Program-made: the position numbers and the translations under genes
The notes under the pieces: generated by a model
Database searches by the model: none
Told to the model about the DNA's origin: nothing
What the model saw: only the letters and a program-made list of their open reading frames with translations
NCBI GenBank assembly: GCA_024274695.1
Contig: JAJSAI010000014.1
Span: forward strand, 1-57,875
Direction of reading: 5' to 3'
Origin: an archaeon
GTDB lineage: Archaea; B1Sed10-29; JAJSAI01
DNA: 57,875 bases
Shown here: positions 31,701-57,472 of the stretch, one piece after another
How the letters are laid out: each line of letters starts with the position of its first letter
Numbering within the stretch: the first letter of the stretch is position 1

Positions 31701-34700
31701 ATGTCTATTTCTTCCGGCGACTGGACTTTCATGAACCCGCCTACTGGCGCGGACATGCTGGCGAGGGAGTGTTCTTCTGATCCTGTCGTTACTTTCAGCT
31801 CGTACCCCATCTTGCCGTAGAACGTGGCCTTGACAGGGATGCTGATGCTCGCCTGCTGGAACTTGTCTCCGGCTATCTCCAGAACAACGTCCTCCGGGCT
31901 ATTTCCTTGGGCTGGCTCGCAGGCGGTAGCCTCAGGAGACACTGAACAGGACGCTGCGCTTCTGCTGACCGCATTCTCTTCTCCAGAGTATTCCAGGGAG
32001 ATCTTGTCCGGCACGAGTGGGACATCTCCTTTTTTAATCAAGCTGATGTCCAGCGTGGCTTCTTCTCCTATCTTGAGCGCGCAGGCGCCCGGCTGGCTGG
32101 GGTTGCAGATGTTCCCGTCCTCGTCTGTCATGCTCGTGCTCCAGCACAAGGGCACTTCTTCTGAGCACTTGTAGTCCTTGGTCCACGGGGATATTGGCAC
32201 GGTGACATCCAGGCTCCTGCCGCCGACGCTCACGTTCAGGGTGTCTGTTTCGGGTATGAACCCGTAGAGTCCCAGGTTGATCACGAGACTGTCCCCGTAC
32301 GCGATTCCCTTGTAGTCTTTGACGGTAGCCTGGCGGTAGGTCCCCTGGCCGTTACTGTAGTCCGTCCCAAGAGTGTACTCAAGTTTTGCTCCGCGTTCTT
32401 CTCCTGAGTGGAGAACTGCTTTTGCAGAATCTCCTGCTCCCTTAACAAGCCTGAAGTAACCTTCCTGCGTGCTGATTCTCACTGTGTCCGAGAGTGTGTC
32501 CGTGCCGTAGTAGGATAGCACTATCTGGTATTTTCCTGTCCTGCCCTCTTCTAAGCGTATGTTGGCAGGTTCTTTTGCTTCCCACTCCATTTCAACAGCA
32601 GGTGCTTCAGAGTAAGTTATGTGGTCTGCGGTGTACTTTGTGCGCTCTGTGCACTTGTACGTTTTTTCGACCTCGCATCCCATGCTTTCAAGGTATTCTG
32701 GCAGGGAGTCGTAGCAGGAGAAAGCCAACATTACCTGTTTTCCTGGGCAAGAGAGAGAATAGTAGTGCCCCTCTTTTGTTGTTTTTGTCAGGGACTTTGG
32801 CTTGTTGAGTACTATCGTCTGCCCTCCGTTCTTCTCCTGTGCCAGCTTCAGCGTCCCGTCACACTTTATCATGAGCGCGATTTTCCCTTTCTCGTCTGGC
32901 GTCACCTTCCCCACGTCATTGAAAGAAAGAACCCCGTCTTCTGCGGTCAGCGTTTTCTGTTCTCTGAATTCAAGGGTTATCCGAGCTTCTTTCGTTATTT
33001 CCAGCGTGTCATCCTTCCATTCCACTTTTTTGTCCTGGTAGGAGTAAGAGTACCATTTTTTGACCGTGCCTATTCTCACTGTCGCTTTTCCAGCACAGCT
33101 CCCGCTTATTTCAAGCTTATTCAGGCTGAAGCTGGTCTTGGATGGGGAGTCTGTCACTATCACCACAGGGTTTGATAAGGTGTTCTTGTACTCTTTCTCC
33201 ACGGGGCTTCCTGTTCCGGAAGTCTTGTATTCTCCTGAGCCCTTCAGCCTATACACTTCCAGGCACACCTTCTGGTCTTCCGAGCAGGTTTCTGGCCTGG
33301 GTGCTTTCTCAACGTTCAGGTAGACCCTGTCTATGATGTTCTCTCCGTTGCCCAGGGTTATTGAGAGTTTTCCCTTGCCGTTGTAGTACCCTTTCCCGAC
33401 GGCGACTGCTACCACGTCCCCGGAGTATATTATGTGGTAGTTCCACTTCTGCTTGTTCTCTGTGTACGCGACAACGTTGTCGTTTCCTGTGGCGGTGTCA
33501 ACGTCAAAGTGCGTGCCGCTGCTGGACTCCTCTTTTATTGTTATTGTCTTACCCTCCAGTTCAGTGTCTGCTCCGGGCATTTGTTTGACCAGGTATGTCA
33601 GGGTGAATGGCTTCATGAACCCGACGTCGGGGATCTTTTTCCAGTAGTAGTCTTTCCCGTCTACTGTTATTGTAGCGTATTCCATTATTCCCGCGTTCTG
33701 GTTGCACACCATGGTTCCCTTTTCCCAGTCTTCTTCGGTGTACTCCTCTTCCGGCTTGCACTGGGTCTTGTCCGTGGTGATGATGACCTGCTTTTGGCTG
33801 TCGCCAGAGCCGGGCTTGACGTGGATGTACTGGTGGTACGCTCCCTTCTGGGCGGGGGTGAGCGCGTGGAGTTTCATGGTGATCGTCAGACTCTTGAAGG
33901 GCCTTAGCCCGTAGTCTGATTCAGTAGCGCCCGGGCAGTATCTTGAGATAATGTACTTGTTCCCTGTTCTCGTCACGGCGTGCGCGGTGGTTTCTCCTTC
34001 GCACTTGTACTTCACCTCGTTTACCCTGAGCAGGTTGCCTTCTCCTGAAACGCTCAGGCTGATGTCCTTGTTGTACGTTTCTGGTTTTTCGTTCACTACG
34101 GTCACGACAGCGGTCGCGTCCTCTCCTGGGGACAGTTGTACTGGGCTGGACAGTGGTCTGTTCTCAGAGTCGAACAGTGACCATATCACAGTGAGCCCTT
34201 CTCCTGGCAGGTACGTGCCCTCCCCGTTGTATGCTGTGATCTTAAATTCTTTTTCTCCTTCTCCCGGGTCTCTGACTGTCACCTGCGGCTTTTGCCATGA
34301 CCCGTGGTACCTGATGACGAGCTCCTTGCTCTCGCTTCCTTTCCAGTGCCTCACGTACACGGGGATCCTGACCTGTTTGACCGCGCTCTCCTGAGGCTGT
34401 GAATCAATTATCCTGATCTTGTTATCTCCAGCGTCGTACTCGTACTCTTGTTCTGCCTGGACAGAGATCATCTCGTCAGGAAGCTTTAGTTCTATGCTCG
34501 TGTTCTTGTACTCCTGCAGCAGCCCGTACGAGACCACAAGATAGTACCATTTTCCTGCGGTCAGTTTGTCCTGCGTTTCTCCGGAGGAGAACTCAAGGCC
34601 CATGACGTTCACTGATGCGTTGGGTCTTGTCAGGGTGATGTTGAGGGTCTTGTCAGTGTCCATTACCACTCCTGGGAGCATGGTGTAGTACGTTTCCTTT

Positions 34701-37083: not shown

Positions 37084-39363
37084 GTGGTGGAGTACACCAT
37101 CAGGACAGAAGGAGGGAAAAGATACCTTGTAATAAACTACAAGGGCAGGCCAATAGGCCCTAGTGTCGTGGACTACCCCCAGTGCATGAAAGAAGTGATA
37201 GAACTTCTTGAGAAGACTGACGCGGATTACGTGGTCCTGTCAGACGTTTACGAGATAACCTATGATGAAGAACAGACCAAGATGCTCAAGGAAATTGCTG
37301 ACGTTGCGAAACTCTTTTTCAAGCAGGGGGTCTGGAACCCCAGCAAGCTCGTTAACAACAAGGCCTGCGAGGACATGATCCCGAGCAGGTACAACACGGT
37401 CCTCTCAATAGCCCAGGGACTCCTGAAGCAGGACCCGATAAAAGCGTACGTGACTCTGATTAACGTGATAAAAAGAGAAGAGTCTTCCCTTGAGACCCTG
37501 CGGTCTCCCAGGAGGGAGTGCACCGAACACTACCTCAGAACCTTGTACGCCATGAGGGACGAGCTTGAGAAAACGACACTGATCAAAAAGTTTGTTGAGC
37601 TCGCGAGCAAGACAGGAATAAAAAAGATAACAAGAGAGGTCTACCGGCCGTTTTTTGAGGCCCAGATAAAGCCTGCTTTTGTTTCCAGTAGGGTCTTCTT
37701 CTACACTCCTCCTGAGGTCGTGCTGGTTGACCAGTACCAGGTGGCTGATGCGACCGTTAGTATTTACCAGCATCCTGAGAGGATAAACCTGTTGTACTAC
37801 CTGAACCCTCCTGAGTACTCCCTCACGCCCGAAAAGTACTTCCTGCTGTCCAAGACAAGAGAGATAGTCTCCACGTATCATCCGAAGGGAATAAGGTTCA
37901 TGAGCCCGAGGGAGGTCAAGGAATACTTCACCAGCGTGTACGAGACCACCATCCGGGACCTGGCGGACAGGCACAAGATCACGATAACGCCCGAGGAAAT
38001 AGAACAGCTTGCAAGGATCGTCACCAGGTACACTGTGGGGTACGGCATGATGGAGCTCCTGCTGTCCGACAGGAAGCTGACGGACGTGTACATGGACGCT
38101 CCCCTCGGCACGAAACCAGTTTACGTGGTGCACGGGGAGTACGGCACGTGCGAGACAAACGTGCTGTTCACAGAAGAAGAGGCCAAGGGAATAATTTCAA
38201 GGTTCAGGGCACAGTCAGGAAGGCCTTTTGACGAGGCCCACCCCGTGCTGGACTATGACATTCCTGACCTACAGACAAGGGTCGCGGTGATAGGCCCTCC
38301 GCTGTCCCCTGACGGGGTGGCGTTCGCCCTCAGGCTCCACAAGCTAACCCCCTGGACCCTCCCCCAGTTCATTGACGTGAAAATGCTTAACGCGGACACC
38401 GCAGGGCTATTGTCCTTTCTTATAGAAGCCCAGGCGAGCACGCTCGTGAACGGGTCAAGGGGCTCTGGTAAGACCAGCCTGCTGATGAGCCTCATGCTCG
38501 AGCTCCTGCCCTCCCTGAGGATAATCGTGCAAGAAGACACTCTAGAGATCCCTGTCCCTTACATGAAAAGGATAGGGTATAACATACAGCGGCTGAAAAC
38601 ACAGTCCGCGATAGCCGTGAGCAGGACCAGTGCTGAAGTGCCTCCTGAGGAAGCCCTGAGGACCGCGCTCAGGCTGGGGGACTCCGTGCTCGTGATAGGA
38701 GAGGTCAGGTCGAACGAGGCGAAGGTCTTGTACGAGGCAATGAGGGTGGGGGCCATCGGGAACGTGGTCATGGGAACCATCCACGGAGAAAACGCTTACT
38801 CTGTCTGGGACAGGATCGTGAACGACCTCGGGGTCCCTAACACGAGCTTCAAGGCCACTGACGTGATAGTCACGGCCGCGCCCATCCGGTTCGGAGGCTC
38901 TCTGAAGAGGCACAGGAGAGTGATAGAAATAACAGAGGTCAAGAAGCACTGGTACGAGGACCCTGAAAAAGAAGGCGGCCTGCTCACGCTCCTGAAGTTC
39001 GACGCCAAGAGGGACACACAGTATTACGTGAAAGAAGCTTTCGAGGAATCAGAGCTGTTGAAGAGAATAGAGGAAAGGTGGGGTGTTGACCGGGAGTTCC
39101 TGATGAACGAGATAAGGGCAAGGGCCCAGGCGAAACAGTTCCTCGTGGACCAGAAAAGAAAGCACAACATCCCTGACCTGCTAGAGGGAGAGTACACCGT
39201 GCCGGCCAACAACATGTACAGGATAATACAAGAGAGGCAGAGGACAGAGCTCGGCAGCGTGGACCACAAGAAACTCCTGCAAGAATGGAAGAAGTGGGTG
39301 CTCGAGGCCCAGGTCAAGCCTCTCATAAGGGTGAGCAAGAGTGCCGAGAAAAAGAAGGCATAA
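37084..39363 (+). CDS. Type IV pilus/archaellum-type assembly ATPase (TadA/VirB11 family)
   Basis: The 759-residue motor ATPase powers pilus assembly. It has a long N-terminal domain (1-270), then the VirB11/GspE-type core: Walker A NGSRGSGKTSLL (about 456-467), the Asp box QEDTLEIP, Walker B GDSVLVIGEVRS and the His box MGTIHGENAY. The C-terminal 150 residues are an extra helical extension. Two GTG codons in a row can start it, with ggaggt 9-12 nt upstream. The platform protein gene overlaps its end by 23 nt. Confidence 0.9.
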   Translation: MVEYTIRTEGGKRYLVINYKGRPIGPSVVDYPQCMKEVIELLEKTDADYVVLSDVYEITYDEEQTKMLKEIADVAKLFFKQGVWNPSKLVNNKACEDMIPSRYNTVLSIAQGLLKQDPIKAYVTLINVIKREESSLETLRSPRRECTEHYLRTLYAMRDELEKTTLIKKFVELASKTGIKKITREVYRPFFEAQIKPAFVSSRVFFYTPPEVVLVDQYQVADATVSIYQHPERINLLYYLNPPEYSLTPEKYFLLSKTREIVSTYHPKGIRFMSPREVKEYFTSVYETTIRDLADRHKITITPEEIEQLARIVTRYTVGYGMMELLLSDRKLTDVYMDAPLGTKPVYVVHGEYGTCETNVLFTEEEAKGIISRFRAQSGRPFDEAHPVLDYDIPDLQTRVAVIGPPLSPDGVAFALRLHKLTPWTLPQFIDVKMLNADTAGLLSFLIEAQASTLVNGSRGSGKTSLLMSLMLELLPSLRIIVQEDTLEIPVPYMKRIGYNIQRLKTQSAIAVSRTSAEVPPEEALRTALRLGDSVLVIGEVRSNEAKVLYEAMRVGAIGNVVMGTIHGENAYSVWDRIVNDLGVPNTSFKATDVIVTAAPIRFGGSLKRHRRVIEITEVKKHWYEDPEKEGGLLTLLKFDAKRDTQYYVKEAFEESELLKRIEERWGVDREFLMNEIRARAQAKQFLVDQKRKHNIPDLLEGEYTVPANNMYRIIQERQRTELGSVDHKKLLQEWKKWVLEAQVKPLIRVSKSAEKKKA

Positions 39364-41413
39364 GAAAAAAGAGAGGATAGTCTCGCCAAAACAGTACGCT
39401 GAAGCCTACGGGAGCCTGCTCCAGGGGGGACAGGAGAAAAGGACTACTGGAATCAAAGAACCCCTGTACGTGCGGTTCGCCAGATTCGCTGGAAGGATTA
39501 TCAGAGCACCTAACAAGTTCCAGAAAATAGAGTACCAGGCGGCCCTGGACTTCTTGGGGTGGGACCTGGAGCCAAGGGACGTGAACGCTGCAGGCTCTCT
39601 AGCCCTCGTCCTGTCCCTGCTGGCAGTAGTCCCCGCGGCAGGCATTCTCTTGTACATGACCTTCGTAACCTACGAGCTTTCGTACACAATGCTCTTCTAC
39701 ACGCTCGGTCCGCTGGTGCTCGTCCCGTTCCTGGTCAGCTTCTACGTTCAGAACTACATTCTCTTCGCGGCCAAGAAGGAAAGGATGCTGGCAACATCCA
39801 GCATTTCCGACGTGGTCAACTACCTCACCATGAGCATGAAGCTCTCTCCCAACCTGGAGAGGGCGATATCCTTCGCGGCAGAGCACGCCACGGGAAAGAT
39901 CGCAGAAGAGCTCAAACAGCTTGACTGGGAGATCAGGACAGGAGTGCACGCGAGCGCTGAAGAGGCTCTGGACAAGCTCGCGTACAAGTGGGGAGCGTAC
40001 TCCGACGAGTTCAAGCACGCGCTAATGCTGATCAGGTCAAGCACGATAGAAGTGGACGAGGCCAAGAGGAGCCTGATCCTGGACAAGGCTGTCTCGGACA
40101 CCCTGGAAGGAATAAAAGAGAACATGAACGCGTACGCAGGAGAAATGAGGCAGCCCAGCATATACTTGTACTACATGGGAGTCCTTCTTCCCCTCCTGCT
40201 CATAATCCTTCTTCCGATAGGGAGCATAATGGCCAGGCTCCCGTTCTCTAGAACCCCTTTCATAATACTCTTCTACAACATCCTTGTCCCACTCGCCGTC
40301 TTCGTGTTCGCAAGGAACATAATAGGCAAAAGGCCTCCTGTCTACACTGCTCCCGAGATCCCGGACGACTTTCCCGGCCTACCTAAAAAGGGCAGGATAA
40401 GAATAGGGAAGTCAGAGGTTCCGGCAGTGCTCCTGGGGCTGGTGGCAGCCCTCGCGATCATAGGACTGTTCTCGCTCTTCCTGGACCCCGTGCTCAACCC
40501 GTACCCTCCTGAGTGGAACGTTCAAGCGCGGGAGAACTGGTACCCCCTGTTCAGCCTGACGGGGGTGTTCCTGGGAGGGGCTGTGTTCTCAAGCATTGTC
40601 CTGTACTCCCTCTCGCACGCCAAGCGTAAAGCCCAGAAGGAAATAATGGGCATGGAGAACGAGTTCCAGGACTCTGTCTACCTGCTCGCGAGCAGGCTGG
40701 GGGAGAACAGGCCCGTGGAAGAAGCGGTGGAGTATACCGCCAGTTTTCTGGGAGACACTCCCCTGGGCAGGTTCTACCAGAGGACCGCGGACAACATACG
40801 CAACTTGGGAATGACCCTGGACGCCGCGTTCTTTGACCCAGTCTACGGTTCGCTGAAAACCGTTCCGAGCAGGCTCATCCGAGGAGCTGTCAGGGTCATG
40901 GTTGACGCCATGAGCCTCGGAGTACAGCAGGCTGCAAGGGCCCTCATCTCCTTGTCCCTGCAGATCAGGGACTCCCAGAAGGTCAGGGAAAGGATAGTAG
41001 GGATACTGAAGGAAATCACGGGCATGATGCGGTCAATAGTCCTGTTCATAGGCCCCATAGTTCTGGGAATAACCACCTCCCTGCAGGGGATCGTGGTCAG
41101 CACGCTCAAGAGAGTGAGCGAGACAGGGCTCGCGGGAGGAACAGCTTCAATTCCGGGAGTCAACCTGCCCATGGTCTCCTTCGGCAGCCCAGAAGCCCTC
41201 GCGGGAACTCCTGGCCCGATGCTTTTCATGATAATAATGGCTGTTTTCATGGTAGAACTAACAGTCCTGCTGGTGTACTTCATAACAAGGGTGGAGGAAG
41301 GGGAGAACAATACAGTGCTCTACCACGAGCTCGCCAAGACCCTGCCGATAGCCCTCGCCCTGTTCTTCCTTTCGGCCTGGTTCTCCCAGTCTCTCACAGG
41401 GGCAGTGATCTGA
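39341..41413 (+). CDS. Pilus platform protein with two TadC/FlaJ-type (T2SSF) domains
   Basis: The 690-residue membrane protein anchors the pilus ATPase in the membrane. It has a basic N-terminus (MPRKRRHKKK), then two T2SS-F units: helical cytoplasmic parts (about 150-260 and 440-575) each followed by paired membrane helices (LLPLLLIILLPIGSIMARL; IVLFIGPIVLGI). FlaJ/TadC proteins of archaea typically have this double layout. The GTG start lies inside the ATPase end, suggesting coupled translation; the pilin genes follow with a 1-nt gap. Confidence 0.88.
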   Translation: MPRKRRHKKKERIVSPKQYAEAYGSLLQGGQEKRTTGIKEPLYVRFARFAGRIIRAPNKFQKIEYQAALDFLGWDLEPRDVNAAGSLALVLSLLAVVPAAGILLYMTFVTYELSYTMLFYTLGPLVLVPFLVSFYVQNYILFAAKKERMLATSSISDVVNYLTMSMKLSPNLERAISFAAEHATGKIAEELKQLDWEIRTGVHASAEEALDKLAYKWGAYSDEFKHALMLIRSSTIEVDEAKRSLILDKAVSDTLEGIKENMNAYAGEMRQPSIYLYYMGVLLPLLLIILLPIGSIMARLPFSRTPFIILFYNILVPLAVFVFARNIIGKRPPVYTAPEIPDDFPGLPKKGRIRIGKSEVPAVLLGLVAALAIIGLFSLFLDPVLNPYPPEWNVQARENWYPLFSLTGVFLGGAVFSSIVLYSLSHAKRKAQKEIMGMENEFQDSVYLLASRLGENRPVEEAVEYTASFLGDTPLGRFYQRTADNIRNLGMTLDAAFFDPVYGSLKTVPSRLIRGAVRVMVDAMSLGVQQAARALISLSLQIRDSQKVRERIVGILKEITGMMRSIVLFIGPIVLGITTSLQGIVVSTLKRVSETGLAGGTASIPGVNLPMVSFGSPEALAGTPGPMLFMIIMAVFMVELTVLLVYFITRVEEGENNTVLYHELAKTLPIALALFFLSAWFSQSLTGAVI

Positions 41414-44088: not shown

Positions 44089-44598
44089 ATGAGGAAGGGC
44101 CAGTCCGGAGTGATGGACGCCATGATGTTCATGATAATCACTTCAGGAGCGGTCGGCATGCTCCTGTTCGTTTCAGGACTGTACGCTGAGAGCACTAACC
44201 AGCAGGTCCTCTCCTCGTACTCCTACGAGTACGCTGGCAATGCGCTCGTGGCCCTGCACTACGCGCGGGATGATAAGGGAGACTGGTTCTGGAGAAAGCT
44301 TGCGGAGAAATACGACTCAGAGCATCCTGACGAGCTTGAAGAGTATCTTGAGGGAGACGCTGGGAATGTTGTGGAAAAAGTCAGGCTGTCTTCCCCTTCT
44401 CCGCAGACGTACCTGTGCGTGCTTGACAGTTCTGTCAATCCCCTGAAGGCAATGTGCTACAGCATGACCCCTGATGATGTCGGAGTGCTTCAGACAGACT
44501 ACGATAACCCTAACCCCTGCGGTCCCGGCATGCAGTCCTATTCTTACGCTGTTCCCCTGGACGGGGTCAAGTCAGTCTCAGTAATACTATGCTACTAG
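44089..44598 (+). CDS. Pilin-like protein (class III signal), last of the array
   Basis: The 169 residues begin MRKGQSGVMDAMMFM, a clear K-G-Q site and a hydrophobic helix (FMIITSGAVGMLLFVSGLY), then a helical and strand domain with four cysteines (ending VSVILCY). The stop overlaps the convergent 1601-residue gene by 4 nt. Confidence 0.78.
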   Translation: MRKGQSGVMDAMMFMIITSGAVGMLLFVSGLYAESTNQQVLSSYSYEYAGNALVALHYARDDKGDWFWRKLAEKYDSEHPDELEEYLEGDAGNVVEKVRLSSPSPQTYLCVLDSSVNPLKAMCYSMTPDDVGVLQTDYDNPNPCGPGMQSYSYAVPLDGVKSVSVILCY

Positions 44599-47500
44599 TC
44601 CTCTCTTCTTCTCGCGTACTCCCTGGCCATGGCAAGAGAGACTACTATCAGTGCCACGAACACGAGTCCAGCCGTTCCAGGCGGGATGCTCGGCAGGGCT
44701 AGGAACGGCTGCTCTTGCCTGGTCCCCCTCTTCTCAGGAGGCTTGGCGCTTGGCGCTCCCCACGGCGGCTTGCCCGGCTTCATGAACGCGGCCCCGTTGG
44801 CTCCCTGGCTCACGAACTGCGGGTTGAGCGGGAAGTAAAAGTCGTTCGTCAGACTCACTTTCCCGTCCTGGAAAGAGTAGCCTCCGTTAGGCCCGTTCAA
44901 GAGCATGAGCGGCAGCTTGTTTATTGGGTTGCCGTTAGCGTCGGTGATCACCAGCTGCGGGTTGCCCTGCGGGTCAGTGGTCATGACCGCATAGCCCTGG
45001 TTCCCGTTAGGCAGGACTATCTGGTATCCTGGCATGTCATTGTACGGGGTCTGGTTAACCCATCCCTGGACAGGATACTGGTCCGTGACAAGGTTCCCCT
45101 GGTCATCGTAGTACGAGTACGTGATGTTGGACTGTCCAGTATTAGGATCTGTCACGATCCCGAACATGTTGTTGTCGTCCCCGATGCCGTCCGTGATGCA
45201 CATCGTCTCGGCCTTGTCTTTCCACTGCCGTGCTTCTGGACTGTCCGGGCTCTTGAACTCCCACACGAACTTGAACCCTGGAGTGCCGTCAGGGAGCGTG
45301 CAGTTCTCTATCCTGGGAGCTCCTGCGAACGGCCCGTATTCACTGTCAAGACTGTGCTGCATTCCAGCCAGGTATCCTGTCAGGAACATGTGGTAGACTC
45401 CCGTGAAGTCGTATGCCTCGTCTCCCATTTCCTGTTTTACTCCCGGTCTTATGAATCCTCTGGTGTACACTATCGCTCCGTCGGATCCTAAGGCGAACCT
45501 GCAGAACTCGTCGCCCTTGCTGTCCTTTAGTATTATCGTTCCCTGCTTGTCGTTCTTGAACTCCAGGACGCCGTCCGGAACCGTTGCCACTCCTAAGAAC
45601 CTTGCCTTGCACTCTTTCGGAGGAGCTCCCTTGATGAACCTGAACTTGATCTCGTTCTCGGCAGTGGGCCAGATTATCGCGCGCTCGGTCTGCACGTAGT
45701 CCATGGCCCCCATGGCGTCCCGCAGTTGTTCCTTTACATAACCGTCGTCCTTCACGTTCTTGAGGGCGAGCATGTCGTCAGACATGAGCTTTTCTTTCAG
45801 GCAGTTCCCGTCCGGCGTGTCAGTCGTCTCTATTCCGTCAGGATACAGTTTGAGGATGGTGTCCGCCTGGTCCGCCTTCTTTATTTCTATTACTTTTGAG
45901 GCCATGTAAGCGTACCCGTTGTCCATGTCTATACCAAGGGACAGGAACAGCGGGTTCGGCTCTTCTAGTATTGGGTTGCCTTTCTCGTCAAGCAGGAAGT
46001 AGCCTCCTGCCATCATGCACTTGTACGCTCCGGTCCGCGGGTCCTGGTGGCAGAAGGATATCGGGCAGTCTGGGTCTAAAAGCCACCTGACGTTGGCCCT
46101 CTGGAAGTACGCGTCGTACACCCTGTCCGCGATCAGGTGCATTTCTCCTGGCGCTGTCACCACGTAATCGTGGAGCACCTGGGTCTGGACCTGGTTCGGG
46201 TCGGCCCAGCTCCTGATAATCTGGCCTGCTTCAGGGGACACTCCCTCCAGCCAGTTCACTACCGTGGAAATGGTCTGGCCCGCTTCTTTGGGCAGGTCCT
46301 TGAAGTCCTCTGCTATATCCTCTCCTTCCAGGACCCGCGCCAGGCTCGCTATCTCCACGTCTGTTTCCAGGCAGGTGCTCATGTCCTTTAACGCCTTCTC
46401 CTGGGCTTCTATGGCCTTCATTTCAATGTACGCGTTGGTAAGGTCCGCGACGAGGTCTATCCCCACTCCTACAGCAAAGCCAGCTGGTCCTGCCGCCGCG
46501 AACAGTTCTGGGAGGATGTTGGTGAACGTGGCAACACCCAAGGAGGCTGCCGCCGCCCACTTCCAGTACGTGATGTCCCCTTTCCTGTCGCCGAGCACCT
46601 TGGAGCACATCTGGTTCTCGTGCGAGAACGCGTACTTGACGTTCACCAGCGTTCCCTGCCTCATGTCCTGGCCTGTGAGCGTGGCGACCTGCATGAGCCT
46701 TCTTGCGGTGAAAGAGTATACTAACAGTTTTATGAAAAGCTCTCTCTGCGTGAAGCTGGGCACAGGGATGATGGCCGCGGGTATTGCCGCGTAGAATCCT
46801 CCTTCCAGCACCGCTTTTGAGAAAAGGTAAGTTGTTCCCGCGAAGGTCCCGAACGCGCTTTGGACCAGGTCAGGGGCTAAGGGCTTGTCCACCGCGCTCG
46901 CTATGTCCGCGTTCTTGGTGTACCAGTATATTCCCGTGTACATCCCGTCTTTCAGGTTGGTCCAGCCTGCCGGGTCCTCGTATATCGTGTAACCTGTCAC
47001 GTCATTATAGTCTGAGAAGAAGTAGAACTTTCCTGCCAGGGAAAGGATCATGTTCTTGTTGTTCACTTCAAGCTTCTGGTGGGGGTTGACCTGGTCAACT
47101 ATGTAAACGTGCTTCCCAAGACTCTTTCCCTTGGCAAGGGCCTGTGACGGGAAGTTAGGAGCGTCCGGAGTGTACTTCGTGCTCAGCATTCCCACAAGGC
47201 CTCCGACCAAGGAGAACCCTGCTTGTCTTGCCACGTTCTGGTTGATCCAGGTGGTGTGTATCTCTGTTTCCGCGTATACTGGAGCGCTGATGTTCTCCCT
47301 CAACTCCCTGCTCAGACTGATCTTTGTCACCTGTGATGGGAAGTACGGCTGTTGGAAGTACTCGTTGTACCTGCTCACGGCAATGTAAGAGAGGGTCATC
47401 CCAACATGGCTTAATCTTGTGAAAACTGTGAGGAATGAGATCACGCGCCCCCCGACCGCTGCGAAGATTACTTTTGCGGCGTCCCATTTCGGAACTCCCT

Positions 47501-49400
47501 TCAGGCTCCTGTACACGAGAAGGGGTCCTGCGGTCCCCGCAAGGTATCCTTCTGCGTTCTCAAGTCTTCTCATCTCGTCTTTGGCGTCCTGCAGGTTCTC
47601 TAGTTTTGACCCGTACTTGGCGTTGAAGGATTCCAGAGCGCTCTTGAATCCCTTTTTGGCCTTGCTGAGCTCGTTCATGTTCTCAGAATACGTTTTCAGC
47701 AGGGCCCTAACATCGCTCGGAGCATCTATCTCGTCCAGGTTCTTGACTATGACGTCCACTCCTGTGATTTTTCCTGAATCGTCCGTTATTATCCTGATAA
47801 TCTTTCTGTTCTCTAGTTCTTTAAGTTCGTCCAGGTGGCCTTCCAGGCTTTCCAGAGTCTTCTTAACGGCTCCTTCTTTTTTGGTAACCTCCTTTCCCGC
47901 GTCAAGCACTTTCTCCAGGGCCTCTTTTTTCTTTGAAACGTATCCTCCGATGGGGAAGGACCCTCTTCTGATCCCTCCGAGCACTGCTGATGTTATCCTG
48001 TCCCTGAGCGTGAGCGTGCCTAGATCATCTATGTTTATTGCTATCTTCTGCCCTTCAACTTCTTTTACTATCTGAAGCACACCGTTGTCTCCCTGGAGTA
48101 TCTTGTACCCGTCCCCGAGGTCAGTGTCCGCGGCGGCCTCAAACACTTTCCCTGTGCCCCTGTCGAGCACGTACGTTTTTCCCCCCTTGCTTACGCGCAC
48201 GAACCTTTCTTCAGCAGGCAGTCTCCGCGCGCCTTCCTGGAGGCTGTCCGCGATGTCTATCTGTGCCTCCAGCACTGCCTTGATGTTCTTGTTCCTGCCT
48301 GAAACCTCCCGGTACCAGTCTTTAAGATCATACCACCATCCGAGGGCCTTGCCTTTTATTCCCTTGCGCGCGGTTTTTTCACTGAGTTCTAGAGCCTCCT
48401 CGGCAGCATCGTCTCCTATTCCGGACGAGGGGTTGGCGAGCATTTCTGTTACCGCCGCAATAGAGTACACGGTGTCAAACTCGTTCCAGGCTGTGGCAAG
48501 CCAGCCTATGAACTGCATCAGGTGAACCGGCACGAGTATGTCCAGCTTGTCAGGCCCGAGAAGGTTTATTTCAATGTTGTTGCTCCTGATCCTGTTCGGG
48601 GGCTTGGACGCGTCCTCAAGGTCCCTTCCAACTACAGATGACACCTTGTTGGTCAGTTCCCTCACCACGAGCCTTTTCTCGTCCTCGCTTAGCACGGTCA
48701 CGTCCTTTTCCACATCATCAAGATCATACTCTTTTGAGACCTTGAGTATTGCGGACCTGACCCATGACCTCACCTTCTCGTCAGAATTGACAGCATCCCG
48801 GAACGCTTGCGTGTTATTGTTGTAAAGCGCGTTAACAAGGGACGTTATGATCGGCGCTCTCTCGGCAGTGTCAATAGTCCCGCTGAAGTCAATCCCTTTC
48901 CCGCAGTCCTCGTCCACGGTACAGTATATTGTTTCGTCTGTCCTGAGCGCGTACGAGACAAGCCCGTCAACTATAACGTTCTTCAGCTGGCACGCTTCCG
49001 CAGGGCTTTCCACCTGTTTTTTCTGCACGTTGTACAGCAGGAGCTTGCCTCTCTCGGTCATGATGAACTTGTCCTTCACTCTCTCTGCCCCGGGAACGTC
49101 AGAGAGGCCCTGTTCCTCCATTCTCTCCTGCTGCATTCCCAGGACAGGGTTCCCGAAAGCGTCCAGTTGGGGGAAGCTCGTGCGTATCTTTGTTTTCAGC
49201 CGCTGGTACTCTGAATAGTTTAGCTTGTCAATCCATACGTTTTCGCAGCCTCCCAGCCGGGCTCCTTCCTTAACGTCATTGTTCCTCCAGTCCCACACGG
49301 TGGCCATTTCAGAATCCTGGCAGCACTGGGTCAGAGGATAGAACGAGGGCATTATGAGCGTTACCGCGAGTAAAAACGTCAGGAGACCGCGTTTGTTCAT
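44595..49400 (-). CDS. Large exported membrane/surface protein with C-terminal sorting-like signal (1601 aa)
   Basis: An N-terminal signal peptide (KRGLLTFLLAVTLIMPSF) precedes two Cys residues. Residues about 340-640 are helical with coiled coil (KKTLESLEGHLDELKELENR). Hydrophobic segments follow near 650, 740, 860 and 967. The C-terminal third is strand-rich and Asn/Gly-rich (YDDQGNLVTDQYPVQG). The end has PSIPPGTAG, a membrane helix and REYARRRED, which resembles an exosortase signal. The start overlaps the upstream Cys-rich gene by 4 nt. It has no recognised family and is convergent with the pilin array, so it may be a pilus-associated membrane component; inference. Confidence 0.78.
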   Translation of the reverse strand: MNKRGLLTFLLAVTLIMPSFYPLTQCCQDSEMATVWDWRNNDVKEGARLGGCENVWIDKLNYSEYQRLKTKIRTSFPQLDAFGNPVLGMQQERMEEQGLSDVPGAERVKDKFIMTERGKLLLYNVQKKQVESPAEACQLKNVIVDGLVSYALRTDETIYCTVDEDCGKGIDFSGTIDTAERAPIITSLVNALYNNNTQAFRDAVNSDEKVRSWVRSAILKVSKEYDLDDVEKDVTVLSEDEKRLVVRELTNKVSSVVGRDLEDASKPPNRIRSNNIEINLLGPDKLDILVPVHLMQFIGWLATAWNEFDTVYSIAAVTEMLANPSSGIGDDAAEEALELSEKTARKGIKGKALGWWYDLKDWYREVSGRNKNIKAVLEAQIDIADSLQEGARRLPAEERFVRVSKGGKTYVLDRGTGKVFEAAADTDLGDGYKILQGDNGVLQIVKEVEGQKIAINIDDLGTLTLRDRITSAVLGGIRRGSFPIGGYVSKKKEALEKVLDAGKEVTKKEGAVKKTLESLEGHLDELKELENRKIIRIITDDSGKITGVDVIVKNLDEIDAPSDVRALLKTYSENMNELSKAKKGFKSALESFNAKYGSKLENLQDAKDEMRRLENAEGYLAGTAGPLLVYRSLKGVPKWDAAKVIFAAVGGRVISFLTVFTRLSHVGMTLSYIAVSRYNEYFQQPYFPSQVTKISLSRELRENISAPVYAETEIHTTWINQNVARQAGFSLVGGLVGMLSTKYTPDAPNFPSQALAKGKSLGKHVYIVDQVNPHQKLEVNNKNMILSLAGKFYFFSDYNDVTGYTIYEDPAGWTNLKDGMYTGIYWYTKNADIASAVDKPLAPDLVQSAFGTFAGTTYLFSKAVLEGGFYAAIPAAIIPVPSFTQRELFIKLLVYSFTARRLMQVATLTGQDMRQGTLVNVKYAFSHENQMCSKVLGDRKGDITYWKWAAAASLGVATFTNILPELFAAAGPAGFAVGVGIDLVADLTNAYIEMKAIEAQEKALKDMSTCLETDVEIASLARVLEGEDIAEDFKDLPKEAGQTISTVVNWLEGVSPEAGQIIRSWADPNQVQTQVLHDYVVTAPGEMHLIADRVYDAYFQRANVRWLLDPDCPISFCHQDPRTGAYKCMMAGGYFLLDEKGNPILEEPNPLFLSLGIDMDNGYAYMASKVIEIKKADQADTILKLYPDGIETTDTPDGNCLKEKLMSDDMLALKNVKDDGYVKEQLRDAMGAMDYVQTERAIIWPTAENEIKFRFIKGAPPKECKARFLGVATVPDGVLEFKNDKQGTIILKDSKGDEFCRFALGSDGAIVYTRGFIRPGVKQEMGDEAYDFTGVYHMFLTGYLAGMQHSLDSEYGPFAGAPRIENCTLPDGTPGFKFVWEFKSPDSPEARQWKDKAETMCITDGIGDDNNMFGIVTDPNTGQSNITYSYYDDQGNLVTDQYPVQGWVNQTPYNDMPGYQIVLPNGNQGYAVMTTDPQGNPQLVITDANGNPINKLPLMLLNGPNGGYSFQDGKVSLTNDFYFPLNPQFVSQGANGAAFMKPGKPPWGAPSAKPPEKRGTRQEQPFLALPSIPPGTAGLVFVALIVVSLAMAREYARRRED

Positions 49401-51352: not shown

Positions 51353-51892
51353 TCACAGCTCTTTTGTCACGTAGGGGAACGCGAACAGGTTCTCGCTCAC
51401 GTGCAAGGGGGGTCTTACGATGTCCGCTCTCAGTCTCCCCTCCTCGTCCACTGCTTCTGGCTTGTAATGGAGCCTGACCACCCTCCCGATTATTAGCACG
51501 TGGTCTCCCTCTTTCTTTGCGCTCTCCAGGTAGCATTCCATGCTCGCCGCGCATTCCGCGAGAAGGGGTGGGGCTACTTTCTCGGCGGGCGCGGTCTGGA
51601 GCCCTGCCTTCTCTATCTTGGACACGTCAGGATCATGCTTTCCGCCCGCTATCCACACCTTTTCAAGCATCTTTTCTGTTGGGATGTTGACCACGAACTC
51701 CTTTTTCCGGGTGATGTTCCAGTAGGAGTGCTTGTTAGGGCCTACCGCGAGCATGAGCAGGGGAGGGTCAAAAGAAACAGGGGCCACGAAAGAGAACGCT
51801 GCCACGTCAGCCCTTCCCTTCTCGTCCACGGTGGTCACGAGGACCACTGGCCTGGGCGCCAGCAGCTTGTAATAGTTCTTAGGGTCGGTCAA
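51353..51892 (-). CDS. Flavin-reductase-like protein (FMN-binding split barrel)
   Basis: The 179-residue protein carries the flavin reductase-like fold: LLAPRPVVLVTTVDEKGR near the start, FSFVAPVSFDPPLLMLAVG for FMN binding, and FVVNIPTEKMLE. It would bind FMN and transfer electrons in the cytoplasm; the partner is unknown. The DUF473-like gene lies 7 nt upstream, so it is likely in the same operon. Confidence 0.88.
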   Translation of the reverse strand: MTDPKNYYKLLAPRPVVLVTTVDEKGRADVAAFSFVAPVSFDPPLLMLAVGPNKHSYWNITRKKEFVVNIPTEKMLEKVWIAGGKHDPDVSKIEKAGLQTAPAEKVAPPLLAECAASMECYLESAKKEGDHVLIIGRVVRLHYKPEAVDEEGRLRADIVRPPLHVSENLFAFPYVTKEL

Positions 51893-51899
51893 GACAGGA

Positions 51900-52271
51900 T
51901 CACCCCAGGATGGCGTGTTCTTTTATCTCAACCTCCATTCCCTTGCCAAGGCCCTTGTCCCTGACGCTCTGGACCTGCACCTCGTCAAGATACCTCACCT
52001 GGATCCTGGCGGTCAAGAGCTCTTTCTCGTCAAATTCCCTTGGAACCGTTCTCCAGTAACCTGTTTTCACTGACAGGACCTGGGCCAGTACTCCTCTTGT
52101 GCCTTTTACCACGTCCTGCTTGCTGAGGTTGGTTATGAACAGCATTTCTCCCTTCTTTATCCTGGTGGCTGTCGTGATGTGGTCAGCGCACACTAGCTCA
52201 AACGTTTTTATCCCGTGCCTCATGAGATCCTCTATCTCACTCCAGTCTATGGCAGTTATCGCGTAGACCAT
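51900..52271 (-). CDS. DUF473-like small protein
   Basis: The 123 residues form a beta-rich protein with the order typical of archaeal DUF473: an N-terminal ITAIDWSEIEDLMRHGIKT, a strand LVCADHITTATRIKKGEML, then VVKGTRGVLAQVLSVK and LLTARIQVRYLDEVQVQ. The PUA-like fold hints at RNA binding, but family function is unknown. It sits between the flavin-reductase-like and PAC2 genes. The ATG is preferred over the GTG one codon upstream. Confidence 0.55.
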   Translation of the reverse strand: MVYAITAIDWSEIEDLMRHGIKTFELVCADHITTATRIKKGEMLFITNLSKQDVVKGTRGVLAQVLSVKTGYWRTVPREFDEKELLTARIQVRYLDEVQVQSVRDKGLGKGMEVEIKEHAILG

Positions 52272-52277
52272 CACGCA

Positions 52278-53015
52278 TCACCCGTACATGCTCGGATACA
52301 CCTGTTTCTCGGCGTTAGTGTACCCTTTCCTCCCCTTTTCTATTTGCGCGAGCATTGTCTTGACCTTCTCCTTTATTTTTTCAGCCTCTTTCCTCAGGTC
52401 CTTCACGTCAACCTGGACGCCGGTTATCCTGGAGAACACTTCAAGCAGGTCAGCGGCAGCCCCGGGGTCAGGGATGTTCTGCATGGTGGGCACCAGGAGC
52501 CCCATCCCCTCTACGCCCTCGTTGGCGCACATCGCGAGCAGGATCCCGGAGACTCCTGCTGTTACCCCTTCTTCCACGGGCGCTATTCCCAGGTTCTGGA
52601 ACGTTTTCAGTATCTTAGGGTTGGACGCTATCCCGTAGGCCTTCTTCGGCTGTGGCACGAGAGAGGTTATCCCCGCGAAGGAGATGATCCTCTTCACCCC
52701 CTGTTTTTTCGCCAGGTCTATGACCTCCCGGGCTAGAGGGTATACTGACTTGCTTGGTATGACGAACTCGGAGAGTATGACGCACAGTTTGGTTTTCTTG
52801 TCAGCGTAAACCCTCACGGGAAAAGACGGCCGTCCCTTTATTATGACCGAAACCGGAGCGAACTCATCGCTCTCCACGTACCCTACTTCTTCCATCCCGA
52901 GCTTGTCCACCAGGTGGCCTGCGGCTATTGTGGCCACCCATCCTATTCCAGGAAACCCTTCTATCAGGGTGTACCCCTTGAGGCTTGTTCTCTTGTTAAA
53001 CTTTATCCTTAGCAT
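52278..53015 (-). CDS. PAC2-family protein (proteasome-assembly-chaperone-like, PbaA/B group)
   Basis: The 245-residue protein has the PAC2 core: LIEGFPGIGWVATIAAGHLV, YVESDEFAPVSVI, LSEFVIPSKSVYPLAREVID, GVKRIISFAGITS and GVSGILLAMCANEGVEGMGL. It ends in a helical segment (LRKEAEKIKEKVKTMLAQ). Archaeal PbaA/PbaB are related to proteasome assembly chaperones. A TATA-like box (gtttaaaat) about 28 nt upstream fits a leaderless start. Confidence 0.88.
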   Translation of the reverse strand: MLRIKFNKRTSLKGYTLIEGFPGIGWVATIAAGHLVDKLGMEEVGYVESDEFAPVSVIIKGRPSFPVRVYADKKTKLCVILSEFVIPSKSVYPLAREVIDLAKKQGVKRIISFAGITSLVPQPKKAYGIASNPKILKTFQNLGIAPVEEGVTAGVSGILLAMCANEGVEGMGLLVPTMQNIPDPGAAADLLEVFSRITGVQVDVKDLRKEAEKIKEKVKTMLAQIEKGRKGYTNAEKQVYPSMYG

Positions 53016-53904: not shown

Positions 53905-54684
53905 TCATGCTATGCTGGACCCGAGCGAGAGCGCGTACACCGCGCTCGCGGCGGGAACAATCACGGAAGCGTAAAATACTATCCTGTCCCTCTTGTTCTC
54001 CGCGAGGGCAAGGAAAACAGACACTATAAGGCCCATGAGGGGCACGTAGTACTGGTTGGCGGTCAGGACAGCATCCTGCAGCCCACTGTCGTCAGGCCCG
54101 GTTCCCAGCACGCCGGTCCCGGGAAGGTCAAGGGACCTGACCACAGAGAAAGAGGTTCCCAAGAGCCACGGGATCAACAGCCCTGCCGAGATAACCAGGG
54201 TATACTTTTCCACGAGCAGTGACGCGTTCCCCTCTTTTTCAAGCGCTCTCTTGTTCATTCCCTCTTCGGCCAGTGTCCTCATGGCCCTCGCGACCCCCTC
54301 TCCCTTCCGGTAGCACGCGAGCAGCAGCCACACTTCCTCCCGGAGCAGGGGGTTCTCCTCAGCCATTTCCTCAAGCGCCTTTTCCACAGGAGCTCCCCTG
54401 CTTATCTCCCTGCACGCTCTCATAAGGCGGGCGTGGAACGGAGAGTCCCCTCTGGCCGCTTCCCTTAACGCTTTCTCAAAGGGAAGAAATCCCACCAGGA
54501 CCGAAAAGTGGTACATCACTTCAGGCGCGCTCTCCTTCTCCCTGCGCTTCCTCTTTTCCCTGCTGTACTCGGGGAACATCACCGCCTCTGCCACGGGGAT
54601 AGTGATCATAGGAGCGTAAACAGGCCCTGCCAGGACAGTTCCTGCGATCCACGCGCACGCGACCAGCACGACTCCGGAGATCAT
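53905..54684 (-). CDS. TadC/FlaJ-type pilus platform protein B (single T2SSF domain)
   Basis: The 259-residue protein has an N-terminal membrane segment, then a helical cytoplasmic part (SPFHARLMRACREISRGAPV, LEEMAEENPLLREEVWLLLA) that matches the T2SSF pattern, and three further membrane helices near the end. It is half the size of the platform protein of the other pilus locus. The ATG overlaps the stop of its sister gene as ATGA, so the two halves are coupled. A longer in-frame start is rejected. Confidence 0.75.
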   Translation of the reverse strand: MISGVVLVACAWIAGTVLAGPVYAPMITIPVAEAVMFPEYSREKRKRREKESAPEVMYHFSVLVGFLPFEKALREAARGDSPFHARLMRACREISRGAPVEKALEEMAEENPLLREEVWLLLACYRKGEGVARAMRTLAEEGMNKRALEKEGNASLLVEKYTLVISAGLLIPWLLGTSFSVVRSLDLPGTGVLGTGPDDSGLQDAVLTANQYYVPLMGLIVSVFLALAENKRDRIVFYASVIVPAASAVYALSLGSSIA

Positions 54685-55469
54685 GCCGCAGGCCTCCTTG
54701 ACAGCAAAAGCAGCATAACCGTGGCGCTCGCGGCAGGAAACCCTGCCAGGATGACTCCAACAGCCTGGACCGGGCCCAGTCCCACGTTCATGAAAGAGGA
54801 GCCTATGGTGACAAATGACTCGAACATGCACGGCAGAACCGCGGAGCACATTATAAAGAAAAGAGAGTACATGACCGCTTTGCTGTTATACTCCCTGATC
54901 CTGTTCCTCTGCTCCACGAGAACGCTCCTCGCGAAAGAGGAAAGGTTCTCTGTTGACCCCGTGTAGTAGGTTCTCTCAAGCTCTGAGCACGCTCTAGAGA
55001 ACGTTGGGCAGGGAGAAAGTATCCTCTCCTTCTCCAGTGCAGAGTGCGCGCTTTCCCCTGCCTCCATCCTGTCAGCTGCCCTGGCAAGCCTTTCCCCAGC
55101 AGGGCCTCCTGCGCCCTTGAGTGCCTTCTCAAACCCTTCTCCCGCCTCCAGGAGCGCGTACACGAGCAGGAGCGCCCACGGTACCGAGGAGTAAACCTTT
55201 CTGGCGATAAAACGCCTTTTGCAGAAAGGCCATAATCCCAGCACCATGATCCCCGCCCCGGCAAGACCCCAGACGCCGAAGAACAGGCAGGAAGAAAAGG
55301 AGGTCCACGCGGACAAGAACACCAGGCCCGCGAGCAGTCCAGAATACTCTTCAACGGTCCACCCTGCCTGGACGAGGGGCAGGCGCGCTCTGTCCAGCAC
55401 GCCGAGTAAAGGCCGTCCTGCGGGCTCAAACCCTCTTGCCAAGCACAAGAGCAGTCGCTCTAGAAGCAT
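54681..55469 (-). CDS. TadC/FlaJ-type pilus platform protein A (single T2SSF domain)
   Basis: The 262 residues have membrane helices near 30-75 and 185-250 around a cytoplasmic helical domain (ALLEAGEGFEKALKGAGG, ACSELERTYYTGSTENLSSF), the T2SSF layout. Together with the next gene it would form the two-part platform of a compact pilus. It starts inside the 3' end of the ATPase gene (44-nt overlap); the exact start is uncertain. Confidence 0.72.
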   Translation of the reverse strand: MLLERLLLCLARGFEPAGRPLLGVLDRARLPLVQAGWTVEEYSGLLAGLVFLSAWTSFSSCLFFGVWGLAGAGIMVLGLWPFCKRRFIARKVYSSVPWALLLVYALLEAGEGFEKALKGAGGPAGERLARAADRMEAGESAHSALEKERILSPCPTFSRACSELERTYYTGSTENLSSFARSVLVEQRNRIREYNSKAVMYSLFFIMCSAVLPCMFESFVTIGSSFMNVGLGPVQAVGVILAGFPAASATVMLLLLSRRPAA

Positions 55470-57090
55470 ACTCCCTGAAACCCTCCTCGCATGACTCAAG
55501 AAACCTTTTCTTGTCAGGGCATACCCTGCCCCCGGACACCTTCTCCAGGCCCCCTTTCTTCCAGAGGAACACTGGCTCGAGTCCATCTTGCCCCATGACA
55601 CTCGCGTGGGTTACCCTTCTAACCTCGCGCCCAGAGGAGTAGTCTGTCCACCTGTTCTGGCACACTATGACGTCAAATCCGGTCAGGAACGCCTTCCCGA
55701 CCCCGAGGCTTTCAAGCCTTTGTACCGTCTGTTCTGGGCTTCTCGCGTGGAACGTGGCGAAGCAGCTTTTGCCCTGGCCAGCCAGCATCGTGTCAACCAG
55801 CGCGCTGACCTCCTCCCTTTTCCTGACCTCTCCCACGACCACCCTGTCCGGCCGCATTCTCATGGTGTCAGCCACGAGACTGCTCATGCTGGTCCCCTGG
55901 TCTTCTGAGCACACCATCCTCACCACGTGCTCGTGAGGCGCGACTATCTCAGGAGTCTCCTCCACGATCACTATCCTCTCGTTCAGCGGGACGAGGCACA
56001 GGAGAGCGTTCAGGGTAGTTGTTTTCCCTGACCCTGTGCTGCCGCACACCAGGACATTCCGTCCTTCTAAGATCTTTTCCCAAAGCCAGGCTAGCAGTTC
56101 AGGAGTGCACGTTCCGTTCCGGATAAGGGAGCCTGGAGTGAGAGGCTCTTTCCGGAACTTCCGTATAGTGAGCACTGTTCCTCCAGCGCTCACGGGCGGT
56201 TGCACGGCGTGAATCCTGCCCAGGGGGATGTCCGCGTTTATCCTCGGCGTCTTAGCGGATAACCTCCTGCCGAGGCCCCTCGCCATCTTGTTGGCTATCT
56301 GAACGATCTTCTGGTCGGACGTGAAGCGCACGTTCGTGTCAGGCCACCCGTGTTCTGAGTGGTACACCCTTACGGGGCTTCCGGGGCCTGTCACTGTCAC
56401 TTCCTCCACAAGAGGGTCCTGCAGGAACTCTGACAGGACAGAATACCCTCTGAGCTCTTTCTCCATCTCCTGGACCAGGAACTCTCTTGTGCCTGGAGAG
56501 AGGATAACTCTCTGCCTTTCACAGTATTCTTCAAGCTCTTCCTCTGGCTCGAACCTGGGCTTTCCAAGAGAATGTTTCAGCAGACCGTGAAGAACCTTTG
56601 CCTCTTCTATCCACGGTGGCCTTCTTTTGGTCACGTACCACTTTTTTCCTTCCTCGTCCTCGCATATCATGGCGCGGTCGTTTTCCCATTCCACCCTCGC
56701 GGGCAGGATCTTTCTTTTCTCGTACCCGAGAAGAGAGTCCACTATCTTCTTCTCCGAATCGTTCAGCACCATCTCAATCGCGGAATAAGGGCATGAAGAA
56801 ACGCACGCCGGAAACCCTCTTGAGTAGCACAGGTCGCACTTGACTGCCTTTCTTCCCTTTATTAGCACGGCCTGGAACGGGCAGGCGCGGGCGCAAGCTC
56901 CGCACCCGTCGCACTCTTCAGCAAGTATCACAGGAAAACCGTTTGACAGGACGACAGCGTTTTTCGGGCAGGCGGTCACGCACTCCAGGCTGCAGTGGTC
57001 TGGATCGCACCTTAGCAGTGCCTTCATTTCCTCTGCTCCATCCGCTTTCTCGCAGGCGCACGCCCCGCACCCGACGCACGCGCTCTTCAT
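55426..57090 (-). CDS. Polyferredoxin-fused secretion/pilus ATPase (TadA/CpaF family)
   Basis: The 554-residue fusion has residues 1-105 as an iron-sulfur domain with 16 cysteines at about 5, 8, 11, 13, 28, 33, 37, 41, 60, 63, 66, 70, 85, 88, 96 and 100. That is enough for four [4Fe-4S] clusters and matches HycB/CooF-type ferredoxins (CDGCGACARACP; CVSSCP). A linker follows, then a full CpaF/TadA ATPase: Walker A GSTGSGKTT (about 350), EETPEI, Walker B RPDRVVVGEVR and the His box ATFHARSPEQT. A TATA-like box fits the ATG at 57090 better than one 15 nt upstream. It is followed by two TadC genes. Redox control of a pilus motor is inference. Confidence 0.88.
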   Translation of the reverse strand: MKSACVGCGACACEKADGAEEMKALLRCDPDHCSLECVTACPKNAVVLSNGFPVILAEECDGCGACARACPFQAVLIKGRKAVKCDLCYSRGFPACVSSCPYSAIEMVLNDSEKKIVDSLLGYEKRKILPARVEWENDRAMICEDEEGKKWYVTKRRPPWIEEAKVLHGLLKHSLGKPRFEPEEELEEYCERQRVILSPGTREFLVQEMEKELRGYSVLSEFLQDPLVEEVTVTGPGSPVRVYHSEHGWPDTNVRFTSDQKIVQIANKMARGLGRRLSAKTPRINADIPLGRIHAVQPPVSAGGTVLTIRKFRKEPLTPGSLIRNGTCTPELLAWLWEKILEGRNVLVCGSTGSGKTTTLNALLCLVPLNERIVIVEETPEIVAPHEHVVRMVCSEDQGTSMSSLVADTMRMRPDRVVVGEVRKREEVSALVDTMLAGQGKSCFATFHARSPEQTVQRLESLGVGKAFLTGFDVIVCQNRWTDYSSGREVRRVTHASVMGQDGLEPVFLWKKGGLEKVSGGRVCPDKKRFLESCEEGFREYASRATALVLGKRV

Positions 57091-57113
57091 GATATGCAGG
57101 CGCATCGCATGAT

Positions 57114-57142: not shown

Positions 57143-57472
57143 TCACACGGGCTCGGGTTTCAACCGGATTTTTTCCCCTGGCTTCAGGCCTTCGGCTTTC
57201 CCCACGGGCATTTCCACCAGGAACTTGGCCTGCTTTTTTGGGATCACGAGGGGTCTGAATGGTTTCACTCTGTCCACCTGGATGACCCTGTACTCCTCGT
57301 CAAGCCACACCGCGTCAAAAGGAAAGAAGACGAAAAAAGAGTGGATGCTGTTCCGGAGTTTTCCCTTCTTGTCGAACACGAACAGAAGGGGTCTTTCGTG
57401 TTTTTTCCTGAACATGAGTCCTCTGAACTTCTTCCAGGGCGTGTCACACAACTCGTAGTCGCGCAGGATCAT
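57143..57472 (-). CDS. DUF192 family protein
   Basis: The 109-residue protein has DUF192 features: TPWKKFRGLMFRKK near the start, LLFVFDKKGKLRNSIHSFFV, FPFDAVWLDEEYRVI and a C-terminal FLVEMPVGKAEGLKPGEKI. The family is often exported in other organisms, but no signal peptide is present here. It lies between a pilin and the Fe-S ATPase in the same direction; function unknown. Confidence 0.88.
   Translation of the reverse strand: MILRDYELCDTPWKKFRGLMFRKKHERPLLFVFDKKGKLRNSIHSFFVFFPFDAVWLDEEYRVIQVDRVKPFRPLVIPKKQAKFLVEMPVGKAEGLKPGEKIRLKPEPV

Follow-up and report, generated by a model that had tools for sequence, protein, structure and literature searches.

A type IV filament ATPase with a built-in, predicted HycB-type polyferredoxin domain recurs in three archaeal groups

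Does the motor ATPase of a type IV filament system carry its own polyferredoxin, as one archaeal gene suggests, and what might such a domain do there? The gene lies in the window, by which we mean the whole 57,875-nucleotide stretch of DNA analysed here, one contig of an 825-kb genome (91% complete). It is a single ATG-initiated open frame of 559 codons comprising a polyferredoxin and a filament ATPase (Table 1). The preliminary description had the frame right but began it at 57090, which is the second in-frame ATG; the ATG at 57105, aligned to the invariant first methionine of 12 fused orthologs, is preferred. That a 16-cysteine N-terminal domain and a complete motor share one uninterrupted frame is borne out by the sequence, the predicted structure and many homologs. 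Frameshift, misassembly or chance joining is excluded because the same joined frame is found in at least three phyla, in genomes assembled independently of one another. Neither such a joining error nor homologs in which the parts always stay apart, the two outcomes that would have spoken against the original proposal, was seen.

Table 1. Coordinates of the fused gene, its parts and its neighbours in the window
Feature	Position	Strand	Basis and remarks
Whole fused gene: polyferredoxin and type IV filament ATPase	55426..57105	-	559 aa; AlphaFold2 model, motif alignment, Pfam
N-terminal HycB-type domain, predicted 4x[4Fe-4S]	56761..57105	-	Residues 1-115, 16 Cys in four motifs; HycB match, Pfam Fer4
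Junction: helix, then LGY/LGW motif	56716..56760	-	Residues ~116-130; alignment; split point in G010
T2SSE motor ATPase core	55660..56436	-	Residues ~223-482; PF00437, 117 bits
TadC-like platform protein 1	54681..55601	-	T2SSF, 18.3 bits, under cut-off; position kept in relatives
TadC-like platform protein 2	53905..54849	-	T2SSF, 37.5 bits, over cut-off; conserved in relatives
DUF192 gene, directly upstream of the fusion	57143..57472	-	PF02643, 50.9 bits
Pilin-like gene, truncated by the contig end	57480..57875	-	N-terminal hydrophobic stretch GQFYIIAAYLMIIVV; resembles a pilin-like ORF in L220 (cluster c20)
PAC2-family gene	52278..53015	-	PF09754, 163 bits; cluster c2, in 26 loci
DUF473 gene	51900..52274	-	PF04322, 85 bits
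Flavin reductase-like (flavoredoxin) gene, possible redox partner	51353..51892	-	PF01613, 113 bits

An AlphaFold2 model of the fusion (pLDDT 83.6, pTM 0.72) places the N-terminal domain on the HycB fold and the remainder on that of FlaI, GspE and CpaF. Residues 1-115 of the model superpose on Escherichia coli HycB (7z0s_B) with Z 13.7 and an rmsd of 1.9 Å over 110 residues, at 34% identity, and HycB was again the best match when the domain was folded alone (Z 13.0). Several Fer4 families scored above the Pfam cut-off, and there are exactly 16 cysteines within residues 10-105, arranged in four motifs (C10 C13 C16 C18, C33 C38 C42 C46, C65 C68 C71 C75 and C90 C93 C101 C105).

The description of the rest of the protein as a complete motor ATPase of the CpaF/TadA type holds as well. 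Walker A, Walker B, Asp box and His box all lie within one T2SSE domain, and the catalytic motifs occupy conserved columns of the alignment: Walker A GSTGSGKTT (355-363), EETPE (382-386), RMRPDRVVVGEVR (416-428) and H453. Over residues ~131-548, which include the ATPase's own N-terminal domain (residues ~131-222), the model has the archaeal GspE/FlaI fold, with Z scores of 27-30 (FlaI 4ihq_C, 30.1; GspE 2oap_2, 28.7; CpaF 8rjf_A, 27.3). No MshEN/GSPII domain was found at the N-terminus among Pfam matches with E values up to 0.055, nor are there twin ABC domains (PF00005, 18.6 bits, under cut-off). The same genome encodes at least six further T2SSE ATPases above cut-off, and the paralogs listed in the protein search align to the ATPase part of the query only. 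The same contig also encodes another T2SSE ATPase, a divergent one, beside a gene weakly similar to T2SSF (37084-39363 and 39341-41413, both plus strand).

The neighbourhood is that of a filament system. Two TadC genes, the DUF192 gene and a pilin-like gene are co-directional with the fusion, as originally noted, and the pair of TadC/T2SSF platform genes is kept in relatives. The listed reading frame of the first TadC gene overlaps the end of the ATPase, and its true start is probably near 55430. The conserved order is DUF192, Fe-S ATPase, TadC, TadC and PAC2, followed in the window's class by DUF473 and/or flavin reductase; several genomes have a second ATPase-TadC-TadC set directly upstream, accompanied by genes for pilin-like proteins and for a large secreted protein. 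DUF192-like genes (cluster c4) occur at 13 other loci, mostly directly upstream, and are found immediately 5' of ATPases with or without the Fe-S domain (window, L220, L222, L229, L294 and L295). This independence of the Fe-S state suggests a filament-related role for DUF192 here. No hydrogenase, formate dehydrogenase or similar catalytic subunit was found beside the fusion, where the neighbours are filament genes, PAC2, DUF473 and flavin reductase. Elsewhere in the window, 28766-36466 (minus strand) encodes a probable surface protein of 2566 aa with a CarboxypepD_reg domain, and 44595-49400 (minus strand) is a 1601-aa ORF with no Pfam match.

The domain-pair search located the fusion in the window's class, in the phylum that holds archaeon GW2011_AR10 and the named Diapherotrites, and in a third phylum. 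Full-length fusions are present in 13 of the 19 class genomes examined; in four others that ATPase is present, but its Fe-S part is encoded separately (G010), is broken (G016) or is missing (G005 and G001), and the remaining two, which are very incomplete, yielded no ortholog. At the domain level, at least 21 genomes of the AR10/Diapherotrites phylum have the fusion: 10 full-length (L192-L201), one that has every motif but is truncated at the C-terminus (G068), and 10 in reduced form. In the third phylum, a single genome (G274; 3.8 Mb, estimated contamination 6%) holds two different fused copies, and T2SSF genes follow one of these. These copies lie at 3524-5935 (L292) and 4364-6328 (L293), both on the plus strand, and one is extended at its N-terminus by ~150 residues rich in Pro and Lys. 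When 394 archaeal genomes were swept, the Fe-S part was confined to these three groups among the strong matches listed. A readable ATPase frame was present at 73 loci taken from other archaea, from bacteria and from viral contigs, and in none of them did that frame contain two or more Fe-S motifs. A single-protein search of genome contigs gave no match, the best 80 relatives in an alignment-based search of such contigs were all Fe-S-less, and viral contigs returned distant ATPases only. The named Micrarchaeota have the ATPase and lack the Fe-S part. A small SSU tree places the window genome with the other members of its order and gives weak support (85/89) to a grouping with AR10/Diapherotrites. 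Other archaea encode tandem complete secretion ATPases in one frame of ~1050-1190 aa (L045, L046, L047, L028 and L030).

Four-motif ferredoxins of the HycB/FdnH/DmsB family build each cluster from three cysteines of one motif and a fourth from its partner, motif I being paired with IV and II with III. Ligand losses among the Fe-S-bearing orthologs follow the same I/IV and II/III pairing. All 16 ligands are kept in 24 aligned rows, which are diverse (identity elsewhere only ~30%). Six rows lack exactly I-C1..3 and IV-C4, the ligand set of one cluster; two lack exactly II-C1..3 and III-C4; and four lack the first of these sets together with III-C1..3 and II-C4, so that two clusters stay complete. 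The chance that a random loss of four cysteines equals one cluster set is 4/1820, ~0.002 per event. One ligand is missing in G003, and the gene of G016 is broken. Three- and two-cluster versions of the domain occur in several genera (L202, L203, L205-L207, L277-L279, L281 and L282), the four ligands of each lost cluster going together. The strongest support for the clusters is evolutionary: because reduced relatives dropped exact ligand sets and the remaining sets are complete, the [4Fe-4S] clusters of the fusion are almost certainly real, as far as sequence comparison can tell. Their ligation by the 16 cysteines is near-certain on the same grounds, and we infer that they are occupied in vivo. 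Zinc-binding or chance cysteines were rejected, since the losses track [4Fe-4S] ligand sets.

In a tree of the ATPase part, 80 orthologs form one clade (SH-aLRT 100), in which Fe-S and Fe-S-less members are interleaved, with at least eight state changes of the Fe-S domain; internal support is modest, and G000 and G001 are on long branches. About half of the orthologs are without the domain and retain the motor. Pairwise identities of the Fe-S domain (cysteines excluded) and of the ATPase co-vary (Mantel r 0.63, p 0.0002), and 36 of 45 Fe-S-less orthologs retain an LGW-like junction motif, which argues for one old fusion and repeated losses. Such a history would fit the sequences best, and a few re-gains are possible. 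In G010 (L226, contig C83, 2081-3720, minus strand) an Fe-S gene of 125 residues and the ATPase gene adjoin with an ATGA stop/start overlap at the domain junction, either a natural fission or a frameshift error of that assembly.

Compared with known systems, the window protein shares its ATPase motifs, fold and pairing with TadC-like platforms with archaeal GspE2/FlaI (ArlI)/CpaF-TadA ATPases (PF00437), but differs from them in its Fe-S domain, which is absent from all 73 sampled loci outside the group. To our knowledge, none of the solved ATPases of this family has an Fe-S domain. The four motifs, 16 cysteines, ligand pairing and fold, with clusters predicted here, are those of HycB/CooF/FdnH subunits; these, however, belong to hydrogenases and molybdo/tungsto-enzymes, whereas here the domain is covalently joined to a motor ATPase with no such enzyme nearby. 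ABCE1/RLI, also encoded in the same genome (L303), likewise has an N-terminal ferredoxin-like domain on an ATPase and shows that a mechanical ATPase can bear Fe-S clusters (PMC7196836), although it is a twin ABC ATPase with two clusters that acts in ribosome recycling, and its motor is unrelated. Bacterial MshE/PilB-type pilus ATPases carry a sensory domain, MshEN, at their N-terminus, which makes them responsive to c-di-GMP (PMC5013675), but domain, ligand and subfamily are all different. The zinc-binding tetracysteine domain of EpsE/GspE is a metal-binding cysteine domain in a secretion ATPase (PMC5061722); unlike the fusion, it holds one zinc inside the ATPase and no Fe-S clusters.

What the domain does is a matter of weighing several readings. 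By homology, the fusion would be the ATPase of a type IV filament system (an archaeal pilus or a related secretion system) with a HycB-type four-[4Fe-4S] N-terminus. Related ATPases are hexamers that drive TadC-linked filament assembly with ATP; here, the hexamer would act through the two TadC-like platform proteins, so that pilins are added to or removed from the filament. Our preferred reading, held tentatively and with somewhat less than even confidence, is that a redox- or O2-responsive regulatory domain sits on an otherwise ordinary ATP-driven motor, and cellular redox state may thereby bear on filament assembly. The six Fe-S domains of a hexamer would most likely serve in sensing or regulation: the redox state of the clusters, or their integrity under O2 or iron limitation, would alter the docking or conformation of the ATPase N-terminal domain and so gate assembly, with the ferredoxin or flavin pool as electron source. 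Consistent with a regulatory domain are its occurrence in three phyla, the HycB fold with cysteine losses that follow cluster topology, its separability, in that it is absent from about half of the orthologs and has its own gene in G010, and its location at the end where bacterial pilus ATPases bear regulatory domains. Genomic associations with redox enzymes lend this reading some further weight, but each has its counterpart. In each of the 13 class genomes with the full-length form, a flavin reductase gene lies no more than 9 kb from the fusion, and in the Fe-S-less G005 and G001 it is on a different contig, the contigs of G001 being too short for certainty; yet the gene is present in 17 of the 19 class genomes whatever their Fe-S state and was not seen at the loci of the AR10/Diapherotrites phylum, and we therefore rejected it as an obligate partner. 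Similarly, POR_N oxidoreductase is encoded by 34 of 36 Fe-S bearers versus 31 of 43 genomes without Fe-S (Fisher p 0.016, kinship uncorrected), but on independent pairs, only two of which rest on well-supported branches, the association is not significant, and we do not claim it. Moreover, a chain of four clusters exceeds the needs of a sensor and in HycB, NarH and FdnH is a wire, and the two- and three-cluster versions are equally explicable as decaying domains.

The wire-like arrangement is the starting point of a reading that we regard as plausible though unlikely, a HycB/CooF-like relay that passes electrons from a soluble ferredoxin or flavoprotein to an acceptor at the membrane or filament apparatus (a disulfide or metal centre, or an extracellular acceptor), with the ATPase anchoring the relay at the filament base. 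It would account for the exact HycB arrangement of the four clusters and for the linked flavin reductase of the class, and the window genome encodes ferredoxins, a 2-oxoacid oxidoreductase alpha chain and a NuoI-like ferredoxin; on the other hand, no catalytic partner is encoded alongside, unlike for HycB, and some relatives retain the motor with just two clusters, one per two-cluster module, or with none. None of the 34 neighbourhoods examined encodes a multihaem (CxxCH-rich) protein, and electron entry into the filament via cytochromes was accordingly discarded. The preliminary description was right to see a natural fusion of HycB/CooF-like and CpaF/TadA-like parts, and the redox-gated motor that it suggested may exist and agrees with the reading we prefer; its proposal that electrons pass through the pilus base finds no backing in these neighbourhoods or in the relatives whose motor has three, two or no clusters. 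Somewhat more doubtful is a structural role, in which the clusters do no more than staple the fold and the domain serves as a docking piece or a lever whose movement follows the ATP cycle. In ABCE1, an N-terminal Fe-S domain is mechanically coupled to nucleotide-site closure (PMC7196836), 56 residues of module II/III can be overlaid on the Fe-S domain of ABCE1 (1.8 Å, 46% identity, but only Z 4.9), and cluster number varies while the domain is retained. Four clusters are nevertheless costly as a staple, and the domain, being absent from about half of the orthologs, is no obligatory part of the motor cycle. Very improbable, finally, is a near-neutral hitch-hiker, an old fusion of little function decaying by loss. 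The frequent loss and reduction of the domain on the ATPase tree would agree with it, but the 16 ligands are intact in 24 diverse rows, and losses that proceed by whole clusters and leave complete ones point to selection on those remaining.

Both parts of the protein are of known kinds; what is new is their combination, its spread and its cluster-by-cluster reduction. We found no earlier description of the fusion in the openly accessible literature, although automatic annotation in domain-architecture databases may already show the pair, and a 2016 census of archaeal type IV pili makes no mention of ferredoxin or Fe-S. We see about an even chance that the fusion defines a lineage-specific motor class, ancestral to several small-genome archaeal phyla and simplified cluster by cluster, in which assembly is redox-gated or redox-powered by the built-in polyferredoxin; this would be the first filament motor wired to electron carriers. 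The natural series of four-, three-, two- and zero-cluster forms, together with one two-gene split, offers ready-made test constructs. Type IV filament motors are regulated by small molecules and partner proteins, and cultivated DPANN relatives of these tiny-genome archaea depend on cell contact. If the proposal is true, a four-cluster domain on the motor itself would link surface filaments, and with them host attachment and secretion, directly to redox status.
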